The notes beneath the pieces are model-generated. The model saw only the letters and a program-made list of their open reading frames with translations. It was not told the origin of the DNA and did not search any database. A program made the translations under genes and the position numbers. Below, piece after piece: positions 38,983 to 49,060 of a DNA stretch of 64,000 bases. Origin of the DNA: Acetobacter malorum. GTDB taxonomy: Bacteria > Pseudomonadota > Alphaproteobacteria > Acetobacterales > Acetobacteraceae. Location: the NCBI RefSeq assembly GCF_001580615.1, contig NZ_LHZC01000056.1, positions 186,001 to 250,000 on the forward strand. Direction: 5' to 3'. Numbering within the stretch: the first letter of the stretch is position 1; each line of letters begins with the position of its first letter.

Positions 38983-39717
38983 TCACGCGGTATGTACGCC
39001 CAGTGCATCAAGTAACAGACTACGTAGCCCTTCGAACCCTGGATCGGCATGCCGCCGAGGGCGCGGTATGGTAATGGGAACATCCACACGAATACGCCCC
39101 CGTTCAAGTACCACCGCACGGTCAGCAAGAAGAAGCGCCTCGTCCACATCATGTGTCACAAGCAGAACCGCACACCCATGCTTCTTCCACAAATCAGCCA
39201 CCAGTTTCTGCATCTTTAACCGCGTCAGTGCGTCCAGAGCAGCGAACGGTTCATCCAGCATCAGAAAGGCCGGCTCCCTCACAAGGGCTCGGGCAAGCGC
39301 CGCGCGCTGCGCTTCTCCACCCGAGAGCGTAAGCGGCCATGCATTGCTACGATGAGATAGTCCGACCTCCTCCAGAACGGTTTCCGCCCGCTGCCGGATA
39401 CCTTTGTCTTCCTGCCCCAGCACAATATTCTTCCACACACGTTTCCACGGGAGAAGCCGGTGTTCCTGAAACACAACCGAGACTTTACGCGGTCTGGTTA
39501 CGGCCCCGTCGGTCACGGGATCAAGCCCGGCCAGGGTTCTCAACAGGGTTGATTTGCCCGATCCGCTATGCCCCAGCAGAGCAACAAACTCACCGGGAGC
39601 AATCGCCAGATCCAGTCTATTCAGAACAGGAGGACCATTGTTGAACCGTCGCGTGAGCTGTTCCACGATCACGGCCGTACCGGGATCAGCTTCAGAATAA
39701 GAATGTGTGGAGGTCAT
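38983..39717 (-). CDS. ssuB: ABC transporter ATP-binding protein, SsuB-like
   Basis: 244 residues. Walker A is GHSGSGKST (49-57), the signature LSGGE is at 131-135, Walker B FLMLDEP at 151-157, with H-loop VTHDVDEA. The size and the tail RPRRHADPGFEGLRSLLL fit the aliphatic sulfonate subgroup. It overlaps the permease stop (39714-39717, ATGA) and forms an inner-membrane importer with it. The SsuA-like gene at 40740 is divergent and nearest. Confidence 0.92.
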   Translation of the reverse strand: MTSTHSYSEADPGTAVIVEQLTRRFNNGPPVLNRLDLAIAPGEFVALLGHSGSGKSTLLRTLAGLDPVTDGAVTRPRKVSVVFQEHRLLPWKRVWKNIVLGQEDKGIRQRAETVLEEVGLSHRSNAWPLTLSGGEAQRAALARALVREPAFLMLDEPFAALDALTRLKMQKLVADLWKKHGCAVLLVTHDVDEALLLADRAVVLERGRIRVDVPITIPRPRRHADPGFEGLRSLLLDALGVHTA

Positions 39718-40556
39718 GCCTTACGCCCTTTTCGTCCATCTGGGCGCCAGGCCAGCAGAGTGCTTTCGAGAAAACGGACAATCTGATCGGATATCAGGCC
39801 CAGCACACCGTAAACGAGAAGACCTACAAGAATGATATCCGTACGCAGGAAATCCTGAGCGTCCATCATCATGTGCCCGATACCGCTTTCCGCATTCACC
39901 TGCTCGGCGACGACCAGCATCAGCCAGGACACGCCAACGGCGTAACGCAGTCCTGTCAGGAAATCTGGCAATGCTCCGGGAAGAAACACGTCCCGGATCG
40001 TCTGCCACCGTGAAAGACCCAGCGTAGACGCCATTTCCACAAGCTTAGGATCAATGGATCGGATCCCTTTATGCAGATTCAAATAGATCGGAAACGTCGC
40101 ACCTAGCGCAACAAGCAGGATCTTGGGTGTCTCACCAATTCCGAACCACAGGATAAATAGCGGCACAAGCGCCAGAGCAGGCAAAGTCCGCAAGACTTGC
40201 AGAGGCGCATCAACAACGTCCTCCCCAATACGGGACAAACCTGAAATCAACGCCAGCACCACGCCTAAGGTAATCGCCACCCCCAGACCACTTCCTGCCC
40301 GCAGAAGCGATACTCCAAGATTGAAAGGAAGCGTTCCGTCATGCACTAGTGTCCAGCCCGTCACGACAATCTGGATCGGCGACGCCACGAGCCGCGTCGA
40401 AAGAACCCCTAAAGAGCACGCAACCTGCCAGAGACAAACCAGCGCAACGGGAGACATGTAACGCCTTATGGAGGAGACAAGCGCTCTCAAACTCTGGGTT
40501 TTCCCTCTGGATTCAGCAGTCTTGTACAGTCCAGTCAGCGTGATGGCGTCTGACAT
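39714..40556 (-). CDS. ssuC: ABC transporter permease, SsuC-like
   Basis: About 280 residues from ATG 40556. Six predicted membrane segments (VALVCLWQVACSLGVL onward). The cytoplasmic coupling loop ASTLGLSRWQTIRDVFLPGA has the EAA-type Gly. The binding-protein-dependent permease ends with the LVYGVLGLISDQIVRFLE segment common in SsuC. Translationally coupled to the ATPase gene. Confidence 0.92.
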   Translation of the reverse strand: MSDAITLTGLYKTAESRGKTQSLRALVSSIRRYMSPVALVCLWQVACSLGVLSTRLVASPIQIVVTGWTLVHDGTLPFNLGVSLLRAGSGLGVAITLGVVLALISGLSRIGEDVVDAPLQVLRTLPALALVPLFILWFGIGETPKILLVALGATFPIYLNLHKGIRSIDPKLVEMASTLGLSRWQTIRDVFLPGALPDFLTGLRYAVGVSWLMLVVAEQVNAESGIGHMMMDAQDFLRTDIILVGLLVYGVLGLISDQIVRFLESTLLAWRPDGRKGRKA

Positions 40557-40660
40557 CGCGGGTCCTCTCACAGGCAACATTAGGTGCCTACCTTCTCTAT
40601 TCTACGCGCAGATGTCAGGTGAATATTTTAAATATCAATGTTTAACGTGATTTAATTGTT

Positions 40661-40688
40661 CCTCAGCAGATATGCCATCAGGCTGAGG
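40661..40688. promoter_or_regulatory. Leader hairpin between divergent ssuC and ssuA genes
   Basis: CCTCAGC (40661-40667) pairs with GCTGAGG (40682-40688) around a 14-nt loop, in the 183-bp divergent region. It lies 50 bases upstream of the SsuA start. A weak GCTTTCCTGTTT follows; attenuation is possible but unproven. The upstream A/T-rich block (40622-40660) probably holds promoters. Confidence 0.4.
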
Positions 40689-40739
40689 GCTTTCCTGTTT
40701 ATGCAGGGTCGGTTCCCAGATTTGAACGAGTTAATTTTT

Positions 40740-41678
40740 ATGGCCTCTGTAAGAAAACTCCTGTCCTTTGTGGCGGCACTTTTTTGGACAATCTCTTTTG
40801 CCCACGCAGAAGATACCCTGATCGTCGCTGATCAGAAAGGACAGCAGAAGGCCCTTCTTGAGGCCGCCGGACAGGATAAAAATCTTTCCTACACTCTTCA
40901 ATGGACCGAATTTGAAGCCGCTGCTCCCCTTTTGCAGGCGCTTGCGGCAAACGCAGTGGATACAGGAATTGCAGGAGACGGCCCCTTCCTTTTTGCATGG
41001 GGAGCTAATCTGCCCATCAAAGCCGCCTTTCTTGTTCCCCCCAGAGGAGGCGGAGAGTCGACCGCTGTAATCACGACGACCTCATCGCCCATTCACAACG
41101 CGGCGGACCTGTCAGGCAAAAGGATTGGAACGGGCAAAGGCTCGATTGGCCATTTGCTGCTTCTACGCCTGATTGCGACAGGCGCCATTCCTGCCCCCAC
41201 TCCTCATATCGTTTTTCTGGCACCTGCTCAGGCCAAGGCTGCCCTTGATACGAAACAGATTGATGCCTGGTCCACATGGGAGCCGTATGTCTCGCTGGCG
41301 GTCGTCCAAAGCCACGCACACAACATTGTGGATGGTCGGAACGTCATGCCCAACAACAGTTTCTTTGTTGCCACTAACAAGGCTCTGGCAACAAAACACG
41401 TGCGACTTGCAGATTTCTATAAACGAATGACGGCGGCCTACGCGTGGGGAACAGAGCATCAAGCTGAATACGCAGCCATTCTGGGCCGCCAGACCGGCCT
41501 GCCCCTTCCGGTCGCAACGGTCGTAGCTAAACACCTCATCGCCGCTCCGGCGCCTTTGACGCCAAAGGTCATTCAGCAGGAACAGACGACGCTGGACGCC
41601 TATCGTTCCGGCGGTTTTCTGAGAGATGCAGGGAAGCTGGAAGATGCTTTCGATCTGACAGTTTCCCCCTCACAATAA
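40740..41678 (+). CDS. ssuA: ABC substrate-binding protein, SsuA-like
   Basis: 312 residues from ATG 40740, giving a clean Sec signal peptide (VRKLLSFVAALFWTISFAHA); a start at 40656 would bury it. The start LIVADQKGQQKALLEAAGQ, the SP-binding loop LAANAVDTGIAGDGPFLFAW and DAWSTWEPYVSLAVVQ are typical of aliphatic-sulfonate binding proteins. It is divergent from SsuBC and followed by the interrupted SfnC-like gene. It closely resembles the binding protein at 52626 in layout. Confidence 0.9.
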   Translation: MASVRKLLSFVAALFWTISFAHAEDTLIVADQKGQQKALLEAAGQDKNLSYTLQWTEFEAAAPLLQALAANAVDTGIAGDGPFLFAWGANLPIKAAFLVPPRGGGESTAVITTTSSPIHNAADLSGKRIGTGKGSIGHLLLLRLIATGAIPAPTPHIVFLAPAQAKAALDTKQIDAWSTWEPYVSLAVVQSHAHNIVDGRNVMPNNSFFVATNKALATKHVRLADFYKRMTAAYAWGTEHQAEYAAILGRQTGLPLPVATVVAKHLIAAPAPLTPKVIQQEQTTLDAYRSGGFLRDAGKLEDAFDLTVSPSQ

Positions 41679-41723: not shown

Positions 41724-42887
41724 ATGGATGACAATCAATTTCCCCCCACAACCAGCACCACGGCTACGGACAAAGCCCTCGACGAACTGGTTCAGGTCTT
41801 TGCCGAGCGTGCACCACGCTATGACCGCAGCGGCAGTATCGCGGTCGAGAACCTGCATGATCTTCATGAAGCAGGTTTCCTCACTCTGGCATTGCCAAAA
41901 ACGGCGGGGGGAGAGGATATTTCCCTTCGTACTGTGACGGAGATCATCAGCCGTCTTGCACAGGGCGATCCATCAACCGCTCTTATTCTGGCCATGCAGT
42001 ATCTGCAATCCGCTACCTTTGCACAGTCATCTCAATGGTCAGACGAGGTAAAGCAGGAACTGTTCGAGAGCATTCGTCAGGAAGGCGCTCTCATCAACAC
42101 GCTGCGCGTGGAGCCGGAACTCGGCACACCGGCTCGTGGTGGCCTACCCGACACGACTGTCAGCCGAAACGGTTCGACATGGCGCATTTCCGGTCGCAAG
42201 ATCTTCTCGACAGGCTCGACAGCCCTTCAATGGGGCATTGTCTGGGCTAAAACAAATGATACCGAACCCAAAGTCGGACCGGTCCTCGTTCCGCTCGACC
42301 TGAAAGGTGTGCGTATCGAGAAAAGCTGGCATCAGCTTGGAATGCGCGCCACCGGAAGTCACACCATCATTTTTGATAATGTGGAGATTCCGAAACGCTA
42401 TATTGGCCTTTTGGCGTCCCCTCTCGCAAAAGAGAATGTTCCAATCGCGATTGCAAGTTGACATGCGGTTGTCATAGCTGGCCTCTATAACGGCATAGCC
42501 ATTACTGCACGGAACTGGCTGGTGGCGTTTCTTCACAGCCGTAAACCCTCCAACCTAGGAACGTCTCTGGCAAGGCTGCCTCGTTTTCAGATCCTGCTAG
42601 GAGAAATCGATGCCCTGCTTTTGTCCAATGAAGCTTTGATTAACCATACGATCACGCTTACGGAACAAGGCGCAGACACCGATACCACCGCTGGACTGGC
42701 CAAACAGGTCATCACGGAAAATGCCATTGCAGCCGTCAGTAAAGCGGTTGCCGCCATAGGCAATCCCGGTCTGAGTCAGGATAACCCACTTGAACGACAT
42801 TACCGCAATGTCCTGTGCGGCCGCATTCACACGCCACAGGCTGACAGTGCCCTGCTGGCCGCAGGGTGCGAAGCACTGAAGGTTTAG
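41724..42887 (+). pseudogene. SfnC-like acyl-CoA dehydrogenase-fold flavoenzyme, interrupted by one in-frame TGA
   Basis: The frame codes 245 residues (TEIISRLAQGDPSTALILAM, GSTWRISGRKIFSTGS, KSWHQLGMRATGSHTIIFDN) up to TGA at 42459-42461. It then continues in the same frame for 141 residues (HAVVIAGLYNGIAITARNWL, SNLGTSLARLPRF) to a normal stop. The two halves together match the family and equal the 386-residue homologue at 6506. The sequence around the stop, IAIAS-TGA-HAVVIAG, fits a family tryptophan (TGG to TGA), a single-base change. No frameshift is needed. Family members are FMNH2-dependent monooxygenases of dimethylsulfone metabolism. Whether it is a real nonsense mutation, a sequencing error or readthrough cannot be told here. 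Confidence 0.85.
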
Positions 42888-42902: not shown

Positions 42903-44510
42903 TCAGATGTTTTCCAGAACTCTGAAACCATGGGTTCCATCTTTCTCAAGCTGAGCAACCAGTCCGTACTCCCAGTCCAGATAGGCCTGCATAGCCTCTA
43001 CTGCATTATCCGTACCCTCGTAAGGCCGTTTGTAAACATCATCCGGTGTCGAAAAGGCCTGCACCTCGTCCAGCCCTGTTTCAAGCGCATACCCAGTCGC
43101 CTGCCAGGCTTCCGTACCGCCCTTCAAAGCACGAACCCGACAACTTCCGCCGACAAGGTCCGCCGCAGCCAGATAAGCTGCTATACCATTCGGGGACACC
43201 AGAACGATCTCTCTGGCTTCGCGAATTGTCGGATGAGACACCGGAACCGGCCGGATCACGAACCGCGCCCCCGGAATATGTCCTTTCCGGAAGGCCGGAC
43301 TGCCAGCAAGATCCAACACCAGAATATCGCCGCCCTCAAGACGATCATGCAGTTCTACAGCAGAAATCATTTCCACATCAGGCAAGGGCTTTGAAAGCAG
43401 AGGTGCTTCCTGCCCTGTTTCAAACGGCAGGCCATCCCATTCTTCCAGAACGTAAACTTCATTCCACCCCAACTGCCTGAGCCAGTGAGCCGTCATTCTG
43501 GCTCGAACCCCATCATTGTCTGTCAAAACAAGGGTTCCATGCCGCACGCCCACCCATTCATCCGTCGCCTGAACAAGCTGGCCGCCCGGTGCGGACCGGA
43601 AACCCTTCAGGTGCCCTTCCACATATTCTTCAGGCGAACGAACATCCAGCCGATAAACAGTCCGCTGCGGATCCGTCAGAAGTCTCTCCAGACCCTCCAC
43701 TGTAACAGGCCGAACGCCTGTCCGCTCTGCCAGCAACTCCGCGCGAGCTTGGACCGCCTGATGATTTTGCTCTGAAACGTCTGCTCCTTTGCGAGCAGCG
43801 CCCTGTTCGAGCGAAAGTCCTTCCAGCGTCCAGCCAATCGTGCCGTTTCGAAGCGCAAAAACCGGATTGGGAATTCCGGCATTGACGAGAGACTGCGTAC
43901 CGATAATGGATCTTGTCCGTCCCGCGCAATTCACAATGACGGTTGTTTCTGGCGAAGGCGCAATATCCCGAACCCGTAACACCAACTCTCCCCCCGGAAC
44001 CGAACGGCCTCCCGGGATAGCCATAACATTGTATTCAATGAACCGGCGCGCATCGAGAATGACAAGATCATCGCCACGCTTAATCCTGTCATGAACCTCG
44101 CGCGCCGGCAAAGAGGGTGTATGGCGCACATGCTCAACAAGTTCGCCAAATGCCTTCGATGGGACGTTCACATCAATGAATATCTCGCCCCCCGAACGCT
44201 TCCAGCCCTCCAGACCGCCCTCAAGTGCCGATACAGCCGAATATCCAAGAGACTGAAGCAGGTGAACTGCTTTTGTTACCCGGCCTTCTCCATTATCATA
44301 CACAATAATGGGTACGTCTTTGCGCGGTACCAGGCCAGCAATGCGCTCTTCAATACGCCCAACGGGCAAATTGACCGCGAAGAGCGGATGCGCCGAGGCA
44401 AAAGGTCCTTCTTCACGCACATCCAGCAGCGCAATTTCAGCACCGTTTTTGAGACTCTGCCTTACGCTTTCCGAAGAGATCACTGGCAGAAGGTGTGTAA
44501 TGCGGTTCAT
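42903..44510 (-). CDS. Four-domain rhodanese-like protein with one canonical active site
   Basis: 535 residues from ATG 44510 (CAGGAG nine bases before). Four rhodanese-fold repeats in tandem: about 10-112, 135-235, 266-365 and 382-480. The active-site loop has its cysteine only in repeat 2 (Cys195 in CAGRTR). The other loops read DNGEGR (Asp72), DNDGVR (Asp331) and SPNGIA (Ser439). Repeats 2 and 3 keep the LDARxxxEY and LDVRSPEEY strands. A sulfur transfer role through Cys195 with regulatory or binding inactive repeats is likely. The start overlaps the stop of the thiol dioxygenase gene (ATGA), and both lie downstream of an adducin-like gene, so a persulfide/thiol oxidation module is inferred. 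Confidence 0.9.
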   Translation of the reverse strand: MNRITHLLPVISSESVRQSLKNGAEIALLDVREEGPFASAHPLFAVNLPVGRIEERIAGLVPRKDVPIIVYDNGEGRVTKAVHLLQSLGYSAVSALEGGLEGWKRSGGEIFIDVNVPSKAFGELVEHVRHTPSLPAREVHDRIKRGDDLVILDARRFIEYNVMAIPGGRSVPGGELVLRVRDIAPSPETTVIVNCAGRTRSIIGTQSLVNAGIPNPVFALRNGTIGWTLEGLSLEQGAARKGADVSEQNHQAVQARAELLAERTGVRPVTVEGLERLLTDPQRTVYRLDVRSPEEYVEGHLKGFRSAPGGQLVQATDEWVGVRHGTLVLTDNDGVRARMTAHWLRQLGWNEVYVLEEWDGLPFETGQEAPLLSKPLPDVEMISAVELHDRLEGGDILVLDLAGSPAFRKGHIPGARFVIRPVPVSHPTIREAREIVLVSPNGIAAYLAAADLVGGSCRVRALKGGTEAWQATGYALETGLDEVQAFSTPDDVYKRPYEGTDNAVEAMQAYLDWEYGLVAQLEKDGTHGFRVLENI

Positions 44511-45103
44511 GCAGCCCTGCTCCTGGAACGATCCCAAAGATTGGGAACATCCTCGCTGGAATATCCGGATATAAAAGTCTTCTCGATGCCACTGGTCTCG
44601 TCGTAAACGGCGCGCGAAACGCCACCGATATTGGCACCGTAGACATGGATGGAAATAGACGTCTGGTCCGGCAGAGCATTGGCCACGAGATGATAGTCAT
44701 TCACCCCTGGTGCCAGAAACGCGACTTCACCCGGCTCCAGAAAATCCGTTTCTCCTTTTTCAAAACGTCCATCGTCCCTGCGCGTAAACTGCGTTTCGCT
44801 TTCCTTACCACGGAGCATCCCGATCAACCCCCAGACTCGATGATCGTGCAAAGGTGTTTTCTGTCCCGGTCCCCAGACGAAACTGACAACAGAGAACCGC
44901 TCCAATGGATCACAGTGAAGGAGATACTGGCTGTAACGTTCCGGATGTGGTCGGGTATAAGTTTCAGGCAACCAGTCATCGCGCGAGACCAGGGTTTTCA
45001 GAAGCTCCGCACCCACTTTCTGGAGTGACGCAGCGTCAGAGTGTGTCTCGAAAAGCCGCGTAAATCCGAAAACAAACTCCCGTAGTGGCTCAATATTCGT
45101 CAT
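44507..45103 (-). CDS. Cysteine dioxygenase type I family thiol dioxygenase
   Basis: 198 residues, cupin fold. Iron ligands His86 and His88 (PLHDHRVWG) and His138 (NDYH) keep mammalian cysteine dioxygenase spacing (86, 88, 140). The Ser-His-Tyr triad is Ser151, His153 and Tyr155 (SIHVYG; 153, 155, 157 in rat). The Cys crosslinked to Tyr in animals is absent, as in most bacterial forms. It oxidises cysteine or 3-mercaptopropionate to the sulfinate using O2. Substrate preference cannot be called. It is coupled to the rhodanese gene downstream. Confidence 0.9.
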   Translation of the reverse strand: MTNIEPLREFVFGFTRLFETHSDAASLQKVGAELLKTLVSRDDWLPETYTRPHPERYSQYLLHCDPLERFSVVSFVWGPGQKTPLHDHRVWGLIGMLRGKESETQFTRRDDGRFEKGETDFLEPGEVAFLAPGVNDYHLVANALPDQTSISIHVYGANIGGVSRAVYDETSGIEKTFISGYSSEDVPNLWDRSRSRAA

Positions 45104-45118
45104 TGATCTCGCAGTCCT

Positions 45119-45925
45119 TTAATCAAGCAGATCTGGCTCAAGTGCGACGATCCAGTCCCATAAAGGCTGGAACGAATAATAGGCGCCCTGCGCCGTCCCG
45201 ACCTGGCTGGCAGTCAGCCGTGCAATATCCGGTGCAATAGGCTTCAGTGGCCCGGCGGCCTGCGCCAGAAGCTGAGTATGGGCAGCATTGTCCATGGCCA
45301 GAAACCACCACGCCACAGCCTCAACAGTTGGTCCGGCGGTCAGGAGGCCGTGATTCTGAAGGATCAGGCCTTTTCGATGGCCCAGTGTTTCCGCCAGACG
45401 GTCACCTTCACTGTCATCCAGTACCACGCCGCTAAAAGGGTCGAAAACCGCATGATCCTCGTAAAAAGCACAGGAATCCTGCGTGATGGGCAGCAGCTCG
45501 GTTCCTAATGCAGAAAACGCCTTGCCGTATGTAGAGTGGGTATGCGCCGCAGCGACCACATCCGGACGGGCCCGGTGCAGCGCCGAATGAATGGTAAAAC
45601 CCGCTGTATTGATCGGACGATCCCCGATCAGGATATTTCCTTCATGATCCACGAGCTGAAGATCAGAAACCTTGATTTGGGAGAAATGCACAGCCAGCGG
45701 ATTGATCCAGTACCGGTCCGGGAACTCAGGATCACGAGCGGTTACATGGCCTGCAAGCCCCTGATCGAAGCCATATCGCCCAAATAGCCGAAACGTAGCG
45801 GCAAGCCGCTGCTTGCGGTGAAGCCGCTCCGCCTCAAACGTCGCTGCGGGTGTGCGTGGCTGAAGATGGTGCGTCCTCGCACGAACGTCCTGCAGGGACG
45901 AAATGTTATACTGTGTCGCACTCAT
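45119..45925 (-). CDS. Class II aldolase/adducin family protein
   Basis: 268 residues. Zinc ligands His128 and His130 (AHTHSTYG) and His192 (LQNHGLLT) are present. As at 2723, the FucA catalytic Glu position is replaced in TAGFTIHSALH, so aldol cleavage is uncertain. An N-terminal extension of about 30 residues precedes the fold. First gene of the operon aldolase-fold protein, thiol dioxygenase, rhodanese, with 15 bp to the next gene. A role on a sulfur-linked keto acid or mercapto acid is inference. Confidence 0.85.
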   Translation of the reverse strand: MSATQYNISSLQDVRARTHHLQPRTPAATFEAERLHRKQRLAATFRLFGRYGFDQGLAGHVTARDPEFPDRYWINPLAVHFSQIKVSDLQLVDHEGNILIGDRPINTAGFTIHSALHRARPDVVAAAHTHSTYGKAFSALGTELLPITQDSCAFYEDHAVFDPFSGVVLDDSEGDRLAETLGHRKGLILQNHGLLTAGPTVEAVAWWFLAMDNAAHTQLLAQAAGPLKPIAPDIARLTASQVGTAQGAYYSFQPLWDWIVALEPDLLD

Positions 45926-45943: not shown

Positions 45944-46027
45944 TCAGTATCCACGCCTCAGATCCAACCGTGCTTCCAGCGGTCGCCCCTGAAGGAAATT
46001 TTCAAAATTTCGGGCGATGCTGCGCCC
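45944..46027 (-). pseudogene. Possible 3' remnant of a 2-hydroxyacid dehydrogenase
   Basis: One frame ends with GRSIARNFENFLQGRPLEAR and then LDLRRGY before TGA at 45944-45946. This resembles the C-terminus of D-2-hydroxyacid dehydrogenases (NxxRFLxGxPLxNVVDxxRGY). Nothing upstream is recognisable as the Rossmann domains. It occupies the 229-bp gap between the SsuD-like and adducin-like genes, whose remaining bases hold the palindrome at 45995. Confidence 0.35.
45995..46011. promoter_or_regulatory. 17-bp palindrome upstream of the aldolase-thiol dioxygenase-rhodanese operon
   Basis: GAAATTTT (45995-46002), C, AAAATTTC (46004-46011) is a perfect inverted repeat 70 bases upstream of the adducin-like start. 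It is a good candidate for a dimeric regulator, possibly the LysR protein encoded at 47392. No binding motif is claimed. Confidence 0.4.
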
Positions 46028-46154
46028 ACACAGGCCATCACGTCTGACTGGAACGAGGAAATATCTGGCGCCAGCCGAATTTTGAGAGGCGTATAAAAAG
46101 GGAGCTGAGCGCCCGGAAGCTAAGGGGCCCCCAATTAGACGCGTTTACCATGCT

Positions 46155-47249
46155 TCAGGCGGCCTTCTTGCCAGAACGCTGGTCTTCTTTTGCAACCAGT
46201 TCATGAACACGTGGCAACAGATCCCGTCCATAGTCATAGGCATCTCCCAGCGGATCAAACCCACGAATCAGAAAGGTTGAAATTCCCAGACGATAGTAAT
46301 CCAGAAGGGCTTCAGCCACCTGATCCGGGGTTCCCACCAATGAGGTGGAGTTACCTTTAGCGCCTGTCAGAGCAGCAATGCCCGTCCAGAGGCATTTGTC
46401 CAGCCTTGAGCCTTGCTCGGCCGCAGCCAGCAGACGGCGGGACCCTTCATTCGGAATAATGGAAGAGCGGACGTAGCCCGTTTTTTCCTGAAGAACCCTG
46501 GCCTTTTCGAGAATGGCATCAGCCTTGGCCCAAGCGGCTTCTTCAGTGTCAGCCAATATTGGCCTAAGGGAGAGCGAAAATCGTAGGTTACTGCGCCCTG
46601 CCTTTTCCGCAGCAGCCCGAACACGGGAAACGGTTTCCCGAACCTGCTGGTAGGTTTCCCCCCACAGAGCGTAAACGTCTGCCTGTTCTCCGGCGACGGC
46701 AATCGCTTCTTCCGAAGACCCACCGAAGTAAACCGGAATAGCGTGCCCCTGATAGGGAAGGACGCGGGACTGGGCACCACGCACAGTGTAGAACTTGCCT
46801 TGGTAATCAAACGGCTCCAGGCTCCTCCATTCCCGACGCACAATCTCAAGATATTCGCGGGTTCGAGCATAACGCTCTGCTTTGACAGTGTGATCACCAT
46901 CAGCCTGAAGTTCCGTATCACTCCCGCCCGTGATGATATGAACGGCGGCCCGCCCACGGCTGATCTGATCCAGCGTCGCAAACTGGCGAGCCGCCAGAGT
47001 TGGCGCTGTAAATCCGGGGCGATGCGCCACCATCAGGCCCAGCGTCCGTGTGGCTGCAGCGACATACTGGGCCAGCAGGATGCTCTCGGGTGAATTGGAA
47101 TGAAAGGCGATCAGCACCCGATCAAAACCGCCATTTTCATGGATTTTGGCGGTCGTTTCGATATGGGCAAGATCAATGACCGGCCCGGTGGGGGGAATAA
47201 TCTCGGAATGGTTCTGGCTGTTCACGAACCCGATAAATTCCACAGGCAT
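46155..47249 (-). CDS. LLM flavin-dependent alkanesulfonate-type monooxygenase (SsuD-like)
   Basis: 364 residues of the luciferase fold in the SsuD branch. Visible motifs: PPTGPVIDLAHIETTAKIHE, FDRVLIAFHSNSPES, ATRTLGLMVAHRPGFTAPT, ISRGRAAVHIITGG, VYFGGSSEEAIAVAGEQAD and the C-terminal GTPDQVAEALLDYY. SsuD uses FMNH2 and O2 to cut C-S in alkanesulfonates, giving an aldehyde and sulfite. Length (SsuD 381) and conserved Arg/His residues fit. It is divergent from the LysR gene and could be its main target. Confidence 0.88.
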   Translation of the reverse strand: MPVEFIGFVNSQNHSEIIPPTGPVIDLAHIETTAKIHENGGFDRVLIAFHSNSPESILLAQYVAAATRTLGLMVAHRPGFTAPTLAARQFATLDQISRGRAAVHIITGGSDTELQADGDHTVKAERYARTREYLEIVRREWRSLEPFDYQGKFYTVRGAQSRVLPYQGHAIPVYFGGSSEEAIAVAGEQADVYALWGETYQQVRETVSRVRAAAEKAGRSNLRFSLSLRPILADTEEAAWAKADAILEKARVLQEKTGYVRSSIIPNEGSRRLLAAAEQGSRLDKCLWTGIAALTGAKGNSTSLVGTPDQVAEALLDYYRLGISTFLIRGFDPLGDAYDYGRDLLPRVHELVAKEDQRSGKKAA

Positions 47250-47294: not shown

Positions 47295-47391
47295 ATACTC
47301 ATTTTCTTACGTCATAATTCAAGCAAGAAACATTAATTCCACACTTTTGCATGGTTAATTATAGACCATGCCTCCAGCATGGAGCGCTGCT

Positions 47392-48276
47392 ATGTCTCAA
47401 ACGTCCCTTCCCCAGCGCATGGCTCGCAATGTTCCAACTGAACTTCTGCGGTCTTTCGTCGCCATTGTGGAAGCTGGCTCCATGGCGCAGGCGACCGAGA
47501 CAATCTTCCTCACTCAATCCGCCCTGAGCCTGCAGATGAAACGGCTGGAAGATGTACTCCAACAGAAGCTCTTCCGCCGGGATGGACGAAAGCTGGTTCT
47601 CACACCAGCGGGAGAGGAACTCGTGGCCTATGCGCGGCAGCTCCTCGCCCTCAATGACCGGATCATGCACAAGCTTGGCCACGTTGCAGAGCCGGAACCG
47701 ATCACAATTGGTATGGTGCAGGATTTTGCCGACACCATTCTTCCTGATGTTCTGGCGCGTTTCCGGCTCGAACATCCGCGTTGCAGACTGACGGTCCGTG
47801 TTGGCGGATCAACGGAACTGCTGGAGATGTTTGATCGCTCCCGACTGGATATCGTGCTGTGCCTGGGTCAGCACGGAGATCGCCCCAACTCCTCCTGGCG
47901 CATTGTTGGGCAGGACAGAATGGTCTGGATTGGAGATCCCGGCGTTCTGGATCAATCTGAGATTCCACTCGTCCTTCTCGAGCCACCTTGCCGGTTCCGT
48001 GAAGCGGCACTCAGAACCCTTGCAAAAGCACGCCGAGACTACCGCATCGTGCTTGAAACCCCTCACCTTCCAGCCATGCGTGCTGGTGTCCGGAGCGGAC
48101 TTGGCGCAAGCTGCCGAACACGTCGTTTCGCGACGTCAGAAGGACTCTCCATTTTACCAATGGGTATCCTGCCAGAAGTCCCGGAAATCGAAACCATTCT
48201 GGTGCAAAGAAACGGTCTGTCCGAAGCTGCGCAGGATCTTGCGGAACTTCTGACAGAGGCGACTGCGGATCAATGA
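47392..48276 (+). CDS. LysR-type transcriptional regulator of the organosulfur island
   Basis: 294 residues from ATG 47392 (GGAG seven bases before); other ATGs at 47368 and 47419 are in frame. The helix-turn-helix (ATETIFLTQSALSLQMKRLE, then RRDGRKLVLTPAGEEL) is canonical. The effector domain is intact, ending GILPEVPEIETIL. It is divergent from the SsuD-like gene and upstream of the redoxin/flavin reductase/importer set. It is the only regulator gene in the island, and so the likely sulfur-limitation or substrate-sensing activator. Confidence 0.92.
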   Translation: MSQTSLPQRMARNVPTELLRSFVAIVEAGSMAQATETIFLTQSALSLQMKRLEDVLQQKLFRRDGRKLVLTPAGEELVAYARQLLALNDRIMHKLGHVAEPEPITIGMVQDFADTILPDVLARFRLEHPRCRLTVRVGGSTELLEMFDRSRLDIVLCLGQHGDRPNSSWRIVGQDRMVWIGDPGVLDQSEIPLVLLEPPCRFREAALRTLAKARRDYRIVLETPHLPAMRAGVRSGLGASCRTRRFATSEGLSILPMGILPEVPEIETILVQRNGLSEAAQDLAELLTEATADQ

Positions 48277-48373
48277 CCACTCACAAATTGTCACATAAGA
48301 AAAACTCTTTGGAAACCATGCCCGGTTCTCCCGCATGGTAGGGACGTCAGGTCACCCTTAGGGTCTATTGAGC

Positions 48374-49060
48374 ATGAACACTCTCTCTTCTTCCCTCCAA
48401 AGCCGCTATGAAGCCCTTGAGGCCGAACGTCGCAGAACGTGGTCTTCTGAGGCGCTGGCTGGAAATATCGCGCAACGGGAGGCTCTTGTCCGGGCCCAGC
48501 CCGAGACAACGCATGTTAAAGTAGGTGACGTCCTCTCGCCCCATGTACTTTTGGACGCAGACGGCACTACGATTTCACTCGATGACCTGACGTCTGCAGG
48601 GCCAGCTGTAGTGGTCTTTTTCAGGTTCGCAGGCTGTCCCGCGTGTAATATTGCGCTGCCTTACTATGCAGAAACACTAGCTCCTGTTCTGAAAGCCGCA
48701 GGTATCCCACTAGTCGCAGTCTCTTCACAGCCTTTTCCAGAACTCGACAGCATCAGAACGCGAAATGACTTACCTTTCCCGATCCTGAACGATCCGGAAC
48801 TAGCCCTGTCTCACGCTCTGGGCATTACGTATCTCTTTGATGAGAGCGCACGAGACGCCGCGATTGCTAAAGGAGACCGAAGCGAAGCCCTGAACGGAAC
48901 GTCACGCTGGGAACTTCCAAAACCCACCATTCTTGTTCTCGGCCCCGGCCGCACCGTGAGCTTTATCGACATCTCACCTGACTGGATGCGCAGAACCGAA
49001 ACTTCAGTCGTGCTGACAGCACTTGGGCTTAAAAACAAAGGTGTTTATCATGCTGCATGA
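48374..49060 (+). CDS. Redoxin/AhpC-TSA-like protein with CPAC motif
   Basis: 228 residues; TTG 48368 is an alternative start. Residues from about 50 form a thioredoxin-like fold: VGDVLSPHVLLDADGTTISL, then VVFFRFAGCPACNIALPYYA with a CxxC (CPAC) where peroxiredoxins have a single peroxidatic Cys. The following VSSQPFPELDSIRTR matches the peroxiredoxin-like family (AhpC/TSA or DUF899-like). Likely a thiol peroxidase or disulfide reductase protecting flavin chemistry, which leaks peroxide. It overlaps the flavin reductase start by 11 bp, in line with a shared operon. Confidence 0.8.
   Translation: MNTLSSSLQSRYEALEAERRRTWSSEALAGNIAQREALVRAQPETTHVKVGDVLSPHVLLDADGTTISLDDLTSAGPAVVVFFRFAGCPACNIALPYYAETLAPVLKAAGIPLVAVSSQPFPELDSIRTRNDLPFPILNDPELALSHALGITYLFDESARDAAIAKGDRSEALNGTSRWELPKPTILVLGPGRTVSFIDISPDWMRRTETSVVLTALGLKNKGVYHAA

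Follow-up and report, generated by a model that had tools for sequence, protein, structure and literature searches.

In Acetobacter malorum, a preliminary description of a 64,000-nucleotide stretch, referred to below as the window (GCF_001580615.1, contig NZ_LHZC01000056.1, positions 186,001 to 250,000), had placed genes for an adducin-like protein, a thiol dioxygenase and a four-repeat rhodanese in one operon with an ATGA overlap between the last two. The genes and the overlap are present where that description put them: on the - strand the aldolase/adducin-fold gene comes first, then the dioxygenase gene, then the rhodanese gene, and all three are intact. The locus is an acetic-acid-bacterial member of a conserved module of thiol dioxygenase and four-repeat rhodanese. 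The pair itself is already known as PA2602-PA2603 of Pseudomonas, of which the window locus is a further member. What is new, and what goes beyond routine annotation, is that the pairing is general, that it involves two types of dioxygenase, and that the two proteins are fused as a fixed trait in one bacterial family. The features of the trio are as follows.

45119..45925, - strand: class II aldolase/adducin-fold protein, NovR-like (PF00596; NCBIfam PRK06208 420 bits, cut-off 255)
44507..45103, - strand: thiol dioxygenase, assigned to the 3-mercaptopropionate dioxygenase (3MDO) type, 198 aa (PF05995 25.1 bits, barely above the cut-off of 23)
44507..44510, - strand: ATGA overlap of dioxygenase stop and rhodanese start, read from the sequence
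42903..44510, - strand: four-repeat rhodanese of the PA2603/1YT8 type, 535 aa from ATG 44510 (four PF00581 stretches)

The rhodanese frame has an alternative opening at TTG 44537; the ATG at 44510, from which the numbering of Cys195 is counted, gives the ATGA with the dioxygenase stop. Of 76 named pairs, 52 show an NTGA overlap, 16 have an ambiguous start, and 8 have a rhodanese frame that begins past the dioxygenase stop.

Thiol dioxygenase

The dioxygenase matches Protein Data Bank (PDB) entries 4qma (E 1.8e-68), 6xb9 (E 6.8e-67), 3uss/4tlf (E 2.5e-63) and 4wvz (E 4.4e-62). The name of 4qma, “cysteine dioxygenase type I”, is that of its depositors, while 3uss/4tlf and 4wvz are named 3-mercaptopropionate dioxygenase. 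Matches to mercaptosuccinate dioxygenase (E 1.6e-9) and to cysteine dioxygenase (CDO) type 1 entries (E 2.5e-5 or weaker) lie far behind. Entry 6xb9 is the Azotobacter 3MDO (Av3MDO). There the carboxylate of the substrate is bound by Arg168, whose position and that of the mammalian CDO Arg are not homologous, and the Fe-binding His residues and a Ser-His-Tyr network are named as features of 3MDO (PMC8050391, partial text). In the alignment with 6xb9, Arg164 of the window protein takes the place of Arg168, and the Arg is kept in 84 of 85 rows; the Fe ligands His86, His88 and His138 and the network residues Ser151, His153 and Tyr155 are conserved in 83-85 of the 85. Gln59, which we take to be a further mark of the 3MDO family, is found in 84 of the 85 aligned rows. 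Mammalian-type cysteine dioxygenase has a crosslink Cys in its cupin motif, and no Cys occurs in the dioxygenase stretch HDHRVWGLIGML.

The enzyme had been described as a cysteine-type thiol dioxygenase. Thiol dioxygenase holds; the cysteine type was rejected on the weak CDO type 1 matches, the lack of Cys in that stretch and the retention of the 3MDO residues, and by sequence the enzyme is classed as a 3MDO rather than a cysteine dioxygenase. Its close homologues strongly imply a reaction of O2 with a small mercapto-acid, of which 3-mercaptopropionate is the likeliest, that yields the sulfinate, and the oxidation of a thiol to a sulfinate that had been suggested for this locus is in this sense supported by homology.

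Four-repeat rhodanese

The rhodanese aligns over nearly its full length with 1yt8 of P. aeruginosa (E 4.2e-158), whose name is that of the depositors. An AlphaFold model built from 30 sequences has a mean pLDDT of 90.4 and TM-scores to 1YT8 of 0.93 and 0.95. The nearest named relative, from Gluconobacter japonicus, is 90% identical, which marks the genome around the window as Gluconobacter-like. When the repeats are aligned to each other, the catalytic loops of repeats 1-4 read VYDNGEG, VNCAGRT, LTDNDGV and LVSPNGI; Cys457 sits outside the catalytic loop. Conservation was followed over an alignment of 108 rows, in which three rows are the window gene, 80 come from named loci and 25 from additional loci.

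44295..44297, - strand: Asp72, catalytic position of repeat 1 (Asp in 101/108 rows)
43926..43928, - strand: codon of Cys195, repeat 2 loop CAGRTRS (Cys in 108/108 rows)
43518..43520, - strand: Asp331, catalytic position of repeat 3 (Asp in 108/108 rows)
43194..43196, - strand: Ser439, catalytic position of repeat 4 (Cys in 52/108, Ser in 43/108 rows)
42906..43067, - strand: C-terminal tail after repeat 4 (RPYEGTDN..EAMQAYLDWE.., invariant alignment columns)

The window protein thus has the four repeats attributed to it, with the catalytic Cys in repeat 2 only and Asp or Ser in the others. A single catalytic-type Cys is nonetheless no general rule, given the frequency of Cys in repeat 4, where the remaining rows hold Lys (6), Ala (5), Leu (1) or a gap (1). 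The conserved pattern of loop residues exceeds chance. Decay as the cause of the inactive repeats 1 and 3 was rejected on the retention of their Asp residues.

The six Lys rows (L017-L022) are rhodaneses of about 430 aa, such as the one at L118:5032-6318; three PF00581 stretches were found in the single protein scanned. In L118 and L120, wider copies of the L020 and L017 loci, repeat 4 is gone and the C-terminal tail is retained, so the tail is more durable than repeat 4. Neither kind of dioxygenase was detected in the six L017-L022 genomes at the thresholds used. The tail pattern is found in 86 of 86 rhodaneses paired with 3MDO, in 17 of 23 paired with a mercaptosuccinate-type dioxygenase (Msdo) and in 33 of 48 others. 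In the rhodanese tree, partner types are clustered, but 20 changes (one of which stems from the separate label on the window row) and long branches give no proof of a single origin.

Pairing of dioxygenase and rhodanese across genomes

A 3MDO gene lies immediately upstream of the rhodanese gene, on the same strand, in 76 of the 80 best named rhodanese loci, which were picked by similarity and include many from Pseudomonas and Caulobacter. A phylum sample of 299 drawn genomes was searched with both proteins at E 1e-20. The rhodanese was found in 22 and 3MDO in 11, and all 11 of the latter carry the rhodanese (Fisher 2e-14, a value that, like the others given here, overstates the strength of the association because related genomes are not independent). 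When mercaptosuccinate-dioxygenase-like genes are counted with the 3MDO-like ones, 13 of 14 genomes also have the rhodanese (Fisher 4e-16). The two genes are adjacent in 7 of the 11 genomes with both, and about 3 to 8 kb apart in three more (G139, G202, G292).

The same was done for 150 genomes of the window's family, with thresholds of E 1e-50 for the rhodanese, 1e-20 for 3MDO and 1e-15 for the mercaptosuccinate-dioxygenase-like protein, which were found in 73, 37 and 32 genomes respectively. Either dioxygenase is present in 59 genomes, 54 of which also have the rhodanese (Fisher 1e-18); many family genomes carry the dioxygenase and rhodanese genes at separate places. Across 157 rhodanese loci, 86 include a 3MDO gene and 23 another thiol dioxygenase. 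The coupling of dioxygenase and rhodanese that the preliminary description had read from the gene overlap is therefore wider than the window alone shows, and it extends to gene fusions.

Fusions with a second dioxygenase subfamily

Two of the 23 other dioxygenases were tested and both match mercaptosuccinate dioxygenase 8VNI (E 1.1e-41 and 1.6e-44). At locus L124 the order is dioxygenase, a pyridoxal phosphate (PLP) enzyme of Cys/Met metabolism and a rhodanese of the four-repeat type, which matches the mercaptosuccinate dioxygenase (msdo) cluster of Advenella mimigardefordensis (PMC5373536, partial text). At two further loci a mercaptosuccinate-dioxygenase-like protein and a four-repeat rhodanese form one open frame.

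L127:5043-7301, - strand: natural dioxygenase-rhodanese fusion, 753 aa
L122:4265-6835, + strand: natural dioxygenase-rhodanese fusion, 857 aa

The fusion is a fixed trait of the alphaproteobacterial family to which genome G139 belongs, where 71 of 75 genomes match the L127-type fusion and 59 of 75 span both parts, spanning being a query match from residue 20 or earlier to residue 750 or later. Three of the 59 (G481, G451, G455) have one TGA somewhere inside the match, and in the remaining 12 of the 71 the fusion query is covered only partly. Matches to the fusion query also occur in 13 of 80 genomes from the family of G196: G196 spans both parts, as does G537 with one TGA, G586 covers it in part, and the remaining matches are to the rhodanese part. 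No publication title naming such a dioxygenase-rhodanese fusion was found in a mostly title-level search with subscription literature largely outside its coverage.

NovR-like protein and dehydrogenase remnant

The adducin-like protein matches NovR (9ryg, E 3.8e-69), 4xxf (E 9.6e-67) and TqaM (E 6.7e-46); the title of 9ryg is “Decarboxylase NovR” and 4xxf is named fuculose-1-phosphate aldolase. NovR and TqaM, among its closest solved structures, act on substrates from secondary metabolism. His128, His130 and His192 align with His92, His94 and His155 of E. coli FucA, which we take to bind the metal, with Glu73 presumably catalytic. At the Glu73 position the window protein has Gly109, and the 29 rows formed by this protein and its relatives from related clusters hold Gly (15) or Ala (14); among the solved relatives, NovR likewise lacks the Glu and has Ala, and 4xxf has Gly. 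The adducin fold named earlier is thus retained, with three metal-binding His, while the aldolase Glu is lost and the likeness is to NovR. Because the catalytic Glu73 is absent, a FucA-type aldolase appears unlikely, and a retro-aldolase role was set aside on the same ground. More tentatively, the protein may be a metal-dependent and perhaps O2-dependent (oxidative) decarboxylase.

A search for the conserved gene trio had been proposed; the dioxygenase/rhodanese pair proved conserved and the third gene only in part. Of the 15 named Acetobacteraceae loci, 14 have a NovR-like gene directly upstream of the dioxygenase gene; in L054 none was found. In the phylum sample a NovR-like protein (E 1e-50) occurs in 12 of 299 genomes, and only the window genome and G255 among these have 3MDO, in G255 on a separate contig. 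No 3MDO was found within about 5 kb of the NovR-like protein in ten stretches (L128-L137) from other genomes. As a fixed third partner the gene holds up only partly.

45950..46030, - strand: 27-aa C-terminal remnant of a D-2-hydroxyacid dehydrogenase, recognised by comparison with relatives' loci

Directly upstream of the adducin-like gene, 10 of the 15 named Acetobacteraceae loci carry a gene for a D-2-hydroxyacid dehydrogenase. It is shortened in L028 (G. japonicus), in two pieces in L041 and reduced to its last 27 residues in the window; the rest of the genome yielded no close copy, the best match there having 31% identity.

Comparison with known systems

In P. aeruginosa (PA2602-PA2603) and P. 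protegens CHA0 (3mdo-tst), a 3MDO is combined with a rhodanese of the same architecture as in the window. We take 1YT8 to be PA2603 and 3USS/4TLF to be PA2602. Repeat 4 has Cys at its catalytic position in 1YT8 and Ser in the window rhodanese. An aldolase-fold relative, if there is one in the listed Pseudomonas loci, scores lower (109-126 bits) and lies on the opposite strand, whereas the window gene shares the strand of the pair. YnjE and EanB also have several rhodanese repeats each, and the titles of EanB PDB entries mention a persulfidated Cys412 and a small-molecule substrate; however, TM-scores to the rhodanese model are only about 0.2-0.3, and partners and substrates differ.

The 3mdo-tst genes of P. 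protegens CHA0 apparently form one transcription unit, and each has been deleted singly: 3-mercaptopropionate rises without 3mdo (PMC12947264, partial text). Mercaptosuccinate dioxygenase clusters with msdo, cystathionine beta-lyase and rhodanese genes have been described in Variovorax paradoxus B4 and A. mimigardefordensis (PMC5373536, partial text). They too place a thiol dioxygenase near a rhodanese, although the dioxygenase is of the other subfamily. Persulfide dioxygenase-rhodanese fusions, i.e. the type III enzyme of S. aureus and PpPDO (PMC6060420, partial text), share with the window the coupling of a non-heme iron sulfur dioxygenase to a rhodanese. These enzymes have a metallo-beta-lactamase fold, a persulfide substrate and a C-terminal rhodanese, in contrast to the cupin thiol dioxygenase and four repeats of the window, whose dioxygenase falls in the CDO family and not in the metallo-beta-lactamase fold.

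Little was found in the literature on four-repeat rhodaneses or their link to dioxygenases. PA2602 is merely listed as a gene near a BsrA site in one study (PMC8407307), the gene names PA2602 and PA2603 are absent from the main text of another (PMC9765439), and nothing on the pair was found in the available parts of the sulfur-starvation literature, including PMC12581299.

Proposed reaction and alternatives

The preferred reading, to which we give about an even chance, is that the dioxygenase of the module makes a sulfinate, that a persulfide on Cys195 exchanges sulfur with the S-oxygenated product, and that the NovR-like protein acts earlier. The dioxygenase would combine a small mercapto-acid, likeliest 3-mercaptopropionate, with O2. 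Repeat 2 would carry the persulfide, and the sulfinate would serve as acceptor to give a thiosulfonate, or a thiosulfonate as donor; in the next most favoured form, sulfite would be the acceptor and thiosulfate the product. Repeats 1 and 3 and the tail may be maintained structural parts, perhaps a surface on which the dioxygenase docks, and repeat 4 may be dispensable; a scaffold role of repeats 1 and 3 would suit how steadily they are conserved in the alignment, and docking by the tail is a guess. The NovR-like protein, with less assurance, could be a metal-dependent (oxidative) decarboxylase that tailors the thiol acid, and not a retro-aldolase. Of the three-step route in the preliminary description, from a mercapto compound via sulfinate to sulfite or sulfane sulfur, the oxidation to sulfinate is supported by homology; the order of the steps and either end product stay hypothetical.

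Rhodaneses can use sulfinates and thiosulfonates. Since two dioxygenases with different thiol acids have one partner in common, the target of the rhodanese should be a group that both products share, i.e. the sulfinate or later sulfite. The fusion favours the direct product, so that exchange between the Cys195 persulfide and sulfinate is preferred and sulfite comes next. By the known route, 3-sulfinopropionate needs a CoA-linked desulfinase, and that route found no match above the curated cut-off in this genome: the best match to 3-sulfinopropionyl-CoA desulfinase scores 271 of 600 bits, with a model that gave below-cut-off matches in 9 of 14 control genomes and above-cut-off matches in none, so that its weak matches carry no meaning, and with no positive control. 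The missing desulfinase leaves the sulfinate with no known exit and leans weakly towards sulfinate exchange. Elsewhere, the desulfinase Acd adjoins mdo (PMC5373536, partial text). A bolder version is speculative and rather improbable. In it, both small-thiol dioxygenase subfamilies have the multi-repeat rhodanese as their common, dedicated partner and work with it as a single catalytic unit, which in one alphaproteobacterial family is a fused protein. The sulfinate and the Cys195 persulfide would give a thiosulfonate, and the thiol acid would come from a precursor of the 2-hydroxy- or 2-oxo-4-mercaptobutyrate type through the NovR-like enzyme, joined in relatives by the 2-hydroxyacid dehydrogenase.

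Several findings weigh against the preferred reading. The three-carbon substrate is drawn from homologues, and the fusions seen are all with the mercaptosuccinate-type dioxygenase, none with 3MDO itself. Deletion of tst in P. protegens did not significantly alter extracellular 3-mercaptopropionate (PMC12947264, partial text), a null result compatible with a later step for the rhodanese or with no role. The dioxygenase and rhodanese genes of G150 are about 313 kb apart. At the thresholds used, 5 of the 59 family genomes with a dioxygenase lack the rhodanese, and neither dioxygenase was detected in 19 of the 73 family genomes or 9 of the 22 phylum-sample genomes that bear the rhodanese. Lastly, 48 of the 157 rhodanese loci have neither dioxygenase inside the stretch, and many dioxygenase-less loci in the window's family lie between BioC-like and ComF-like genes.

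It is possible, though doubtful, that the rhodanese only disposes of sulfite: sulfite freed later from the sulfinate would combine with the sulfane sulfur of Cys195 to thiosulfate, the reverse of the textbook direction. In the mercaptosuccinate route the dioxygenase product sulfinosuccinate decays to succinate and sulfite (PMC5373536, partial text), the persulfide dioxygenase-rhodanese fusions are a known analogue (PMC6060420, partial text), and the rhodanese pairs with both dioxygenase types. The lack of a desulfinase match above cut-off in this genome speaks against it.

Alternatively, the rhodanese might act before the dioxygenase, stripping sulfane sulfur from persulfides or thiosulfonates of a small acid and passing on the free thiol. 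A fusion would suit such a hand-over, and the PLP enzyme gene at L124, between those of dioxygenase and rhodanese, presumably could supply persulfides; the unchanged extracellular 3-mercaptopropionate of the tst deletion argues against this order, which we consider improbable. A role as sulfur donor for a cofactor, e.g. the molybdenum cofactor of a sulfite-oxidising enzyme, with no direct reaction with the dioxygenase product, has been put forward in the literature for the rhodanese encoded in the mercaptosuccinate cluster (PMC5373536, partial text). It is very unlikely here, as the dioxygenase fusion would be hard to explain and the rhodanese contains only PF00581 and no MoeB/ThiF-type domain (PRK08762 MoeB 128 bits, cut-off 449). 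Equally little credence is given to genuine class II aldolase activity that would release the thiol acid from a larger thiol compound: the fold and the three metal His would allow it, but the Glu position is Gly or Ala in 29/29 rows, as in NovR and 4xxf, although the latter bears an aldolase name.

Under the bolder version, a sulfinate that leaves as a thiosulfonate would be an unrecognised branch of organosulfur metabolism. No tested function for a 1YT8-type rhodanese was found in the literature searched, though the structure was solved in 2005. Co-occurrence and fusion tie the four-repeat rhodanese to thiol dioxygenases, and the fusion offers one protein in which the missing reaction could be tested. 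For 3-mercaptopropionate, a thiol that occurs in the environment, no enzymes of biosynthesis are said to have been reported (PMC12947264, partial text), and the NovR-like enzyme and the neighbouring dehydrogenase are candidates for that role.

Genomic surroundings

The genes around the trio are the following.

46155..47249, - strand: SsuD-like flavin-dependent monooxygenase, upstream of the trio (PF00296; alkanesulfonate monooxygenase model 227 bits, cut-off 510)
47368..48276, + strand: divergent LysR-type regulator (PF00126/PF03466)
48368-49060: AhpC/TSA (redoxin) family gene, beside the LysR gene
41724..42887, + strand: acyl-CoA-dehydrogenase/SfnB-like open reading frame with in-frame TGA 42459-42461 (family matches, sequence)
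40656..41678, + strand: SsuA-like sulfonate-binding protein (TIGR01728 152.9 bits, cut-off of 163.5 not reached)
39714..40580, - strand: SsuC-like permease (PF00528; PRK11365 249 bits, cut-off of 347 not reached)

With its SsuA-, SsuC-, SsuD- and SfnB-like genes and LysR regulator, the neighbourhood looks like an organosulfur-scavenging cluster; the SfnB-, SsuA- and SsuC-like genes lie downstream of the trio. The NCBIfam matches of the neighbour genes fall below curated cut-offs, so any exact substrate is tentative. The SfnB-like gene, broken by the TGA in the window, is a single open frame in the relatives L028-L030. AhpC/TSA relatives are found near the cluster in 22 of the 80 named loci. 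Among the rhodanese loci with no dioxygenase nearby, L108, L110, L149 and others have the rhodanese near BioC-like methyltransferase and ComF-like/DUF1178 genes; a ComF-like gene is present in 25 of 39 dioxygenase-less family loci, with one protein per kind scanned and NCBIfam scores below cut-off. In a Caulobacter cluster, a TonB-dependent receptor gene (L043:7137-9416; one protein scanned) lies just upstream of the 3MDO gene, and the corresponding cluster of open reading frames spans 16 loci, which hints at uptake of a larger thiol compound.

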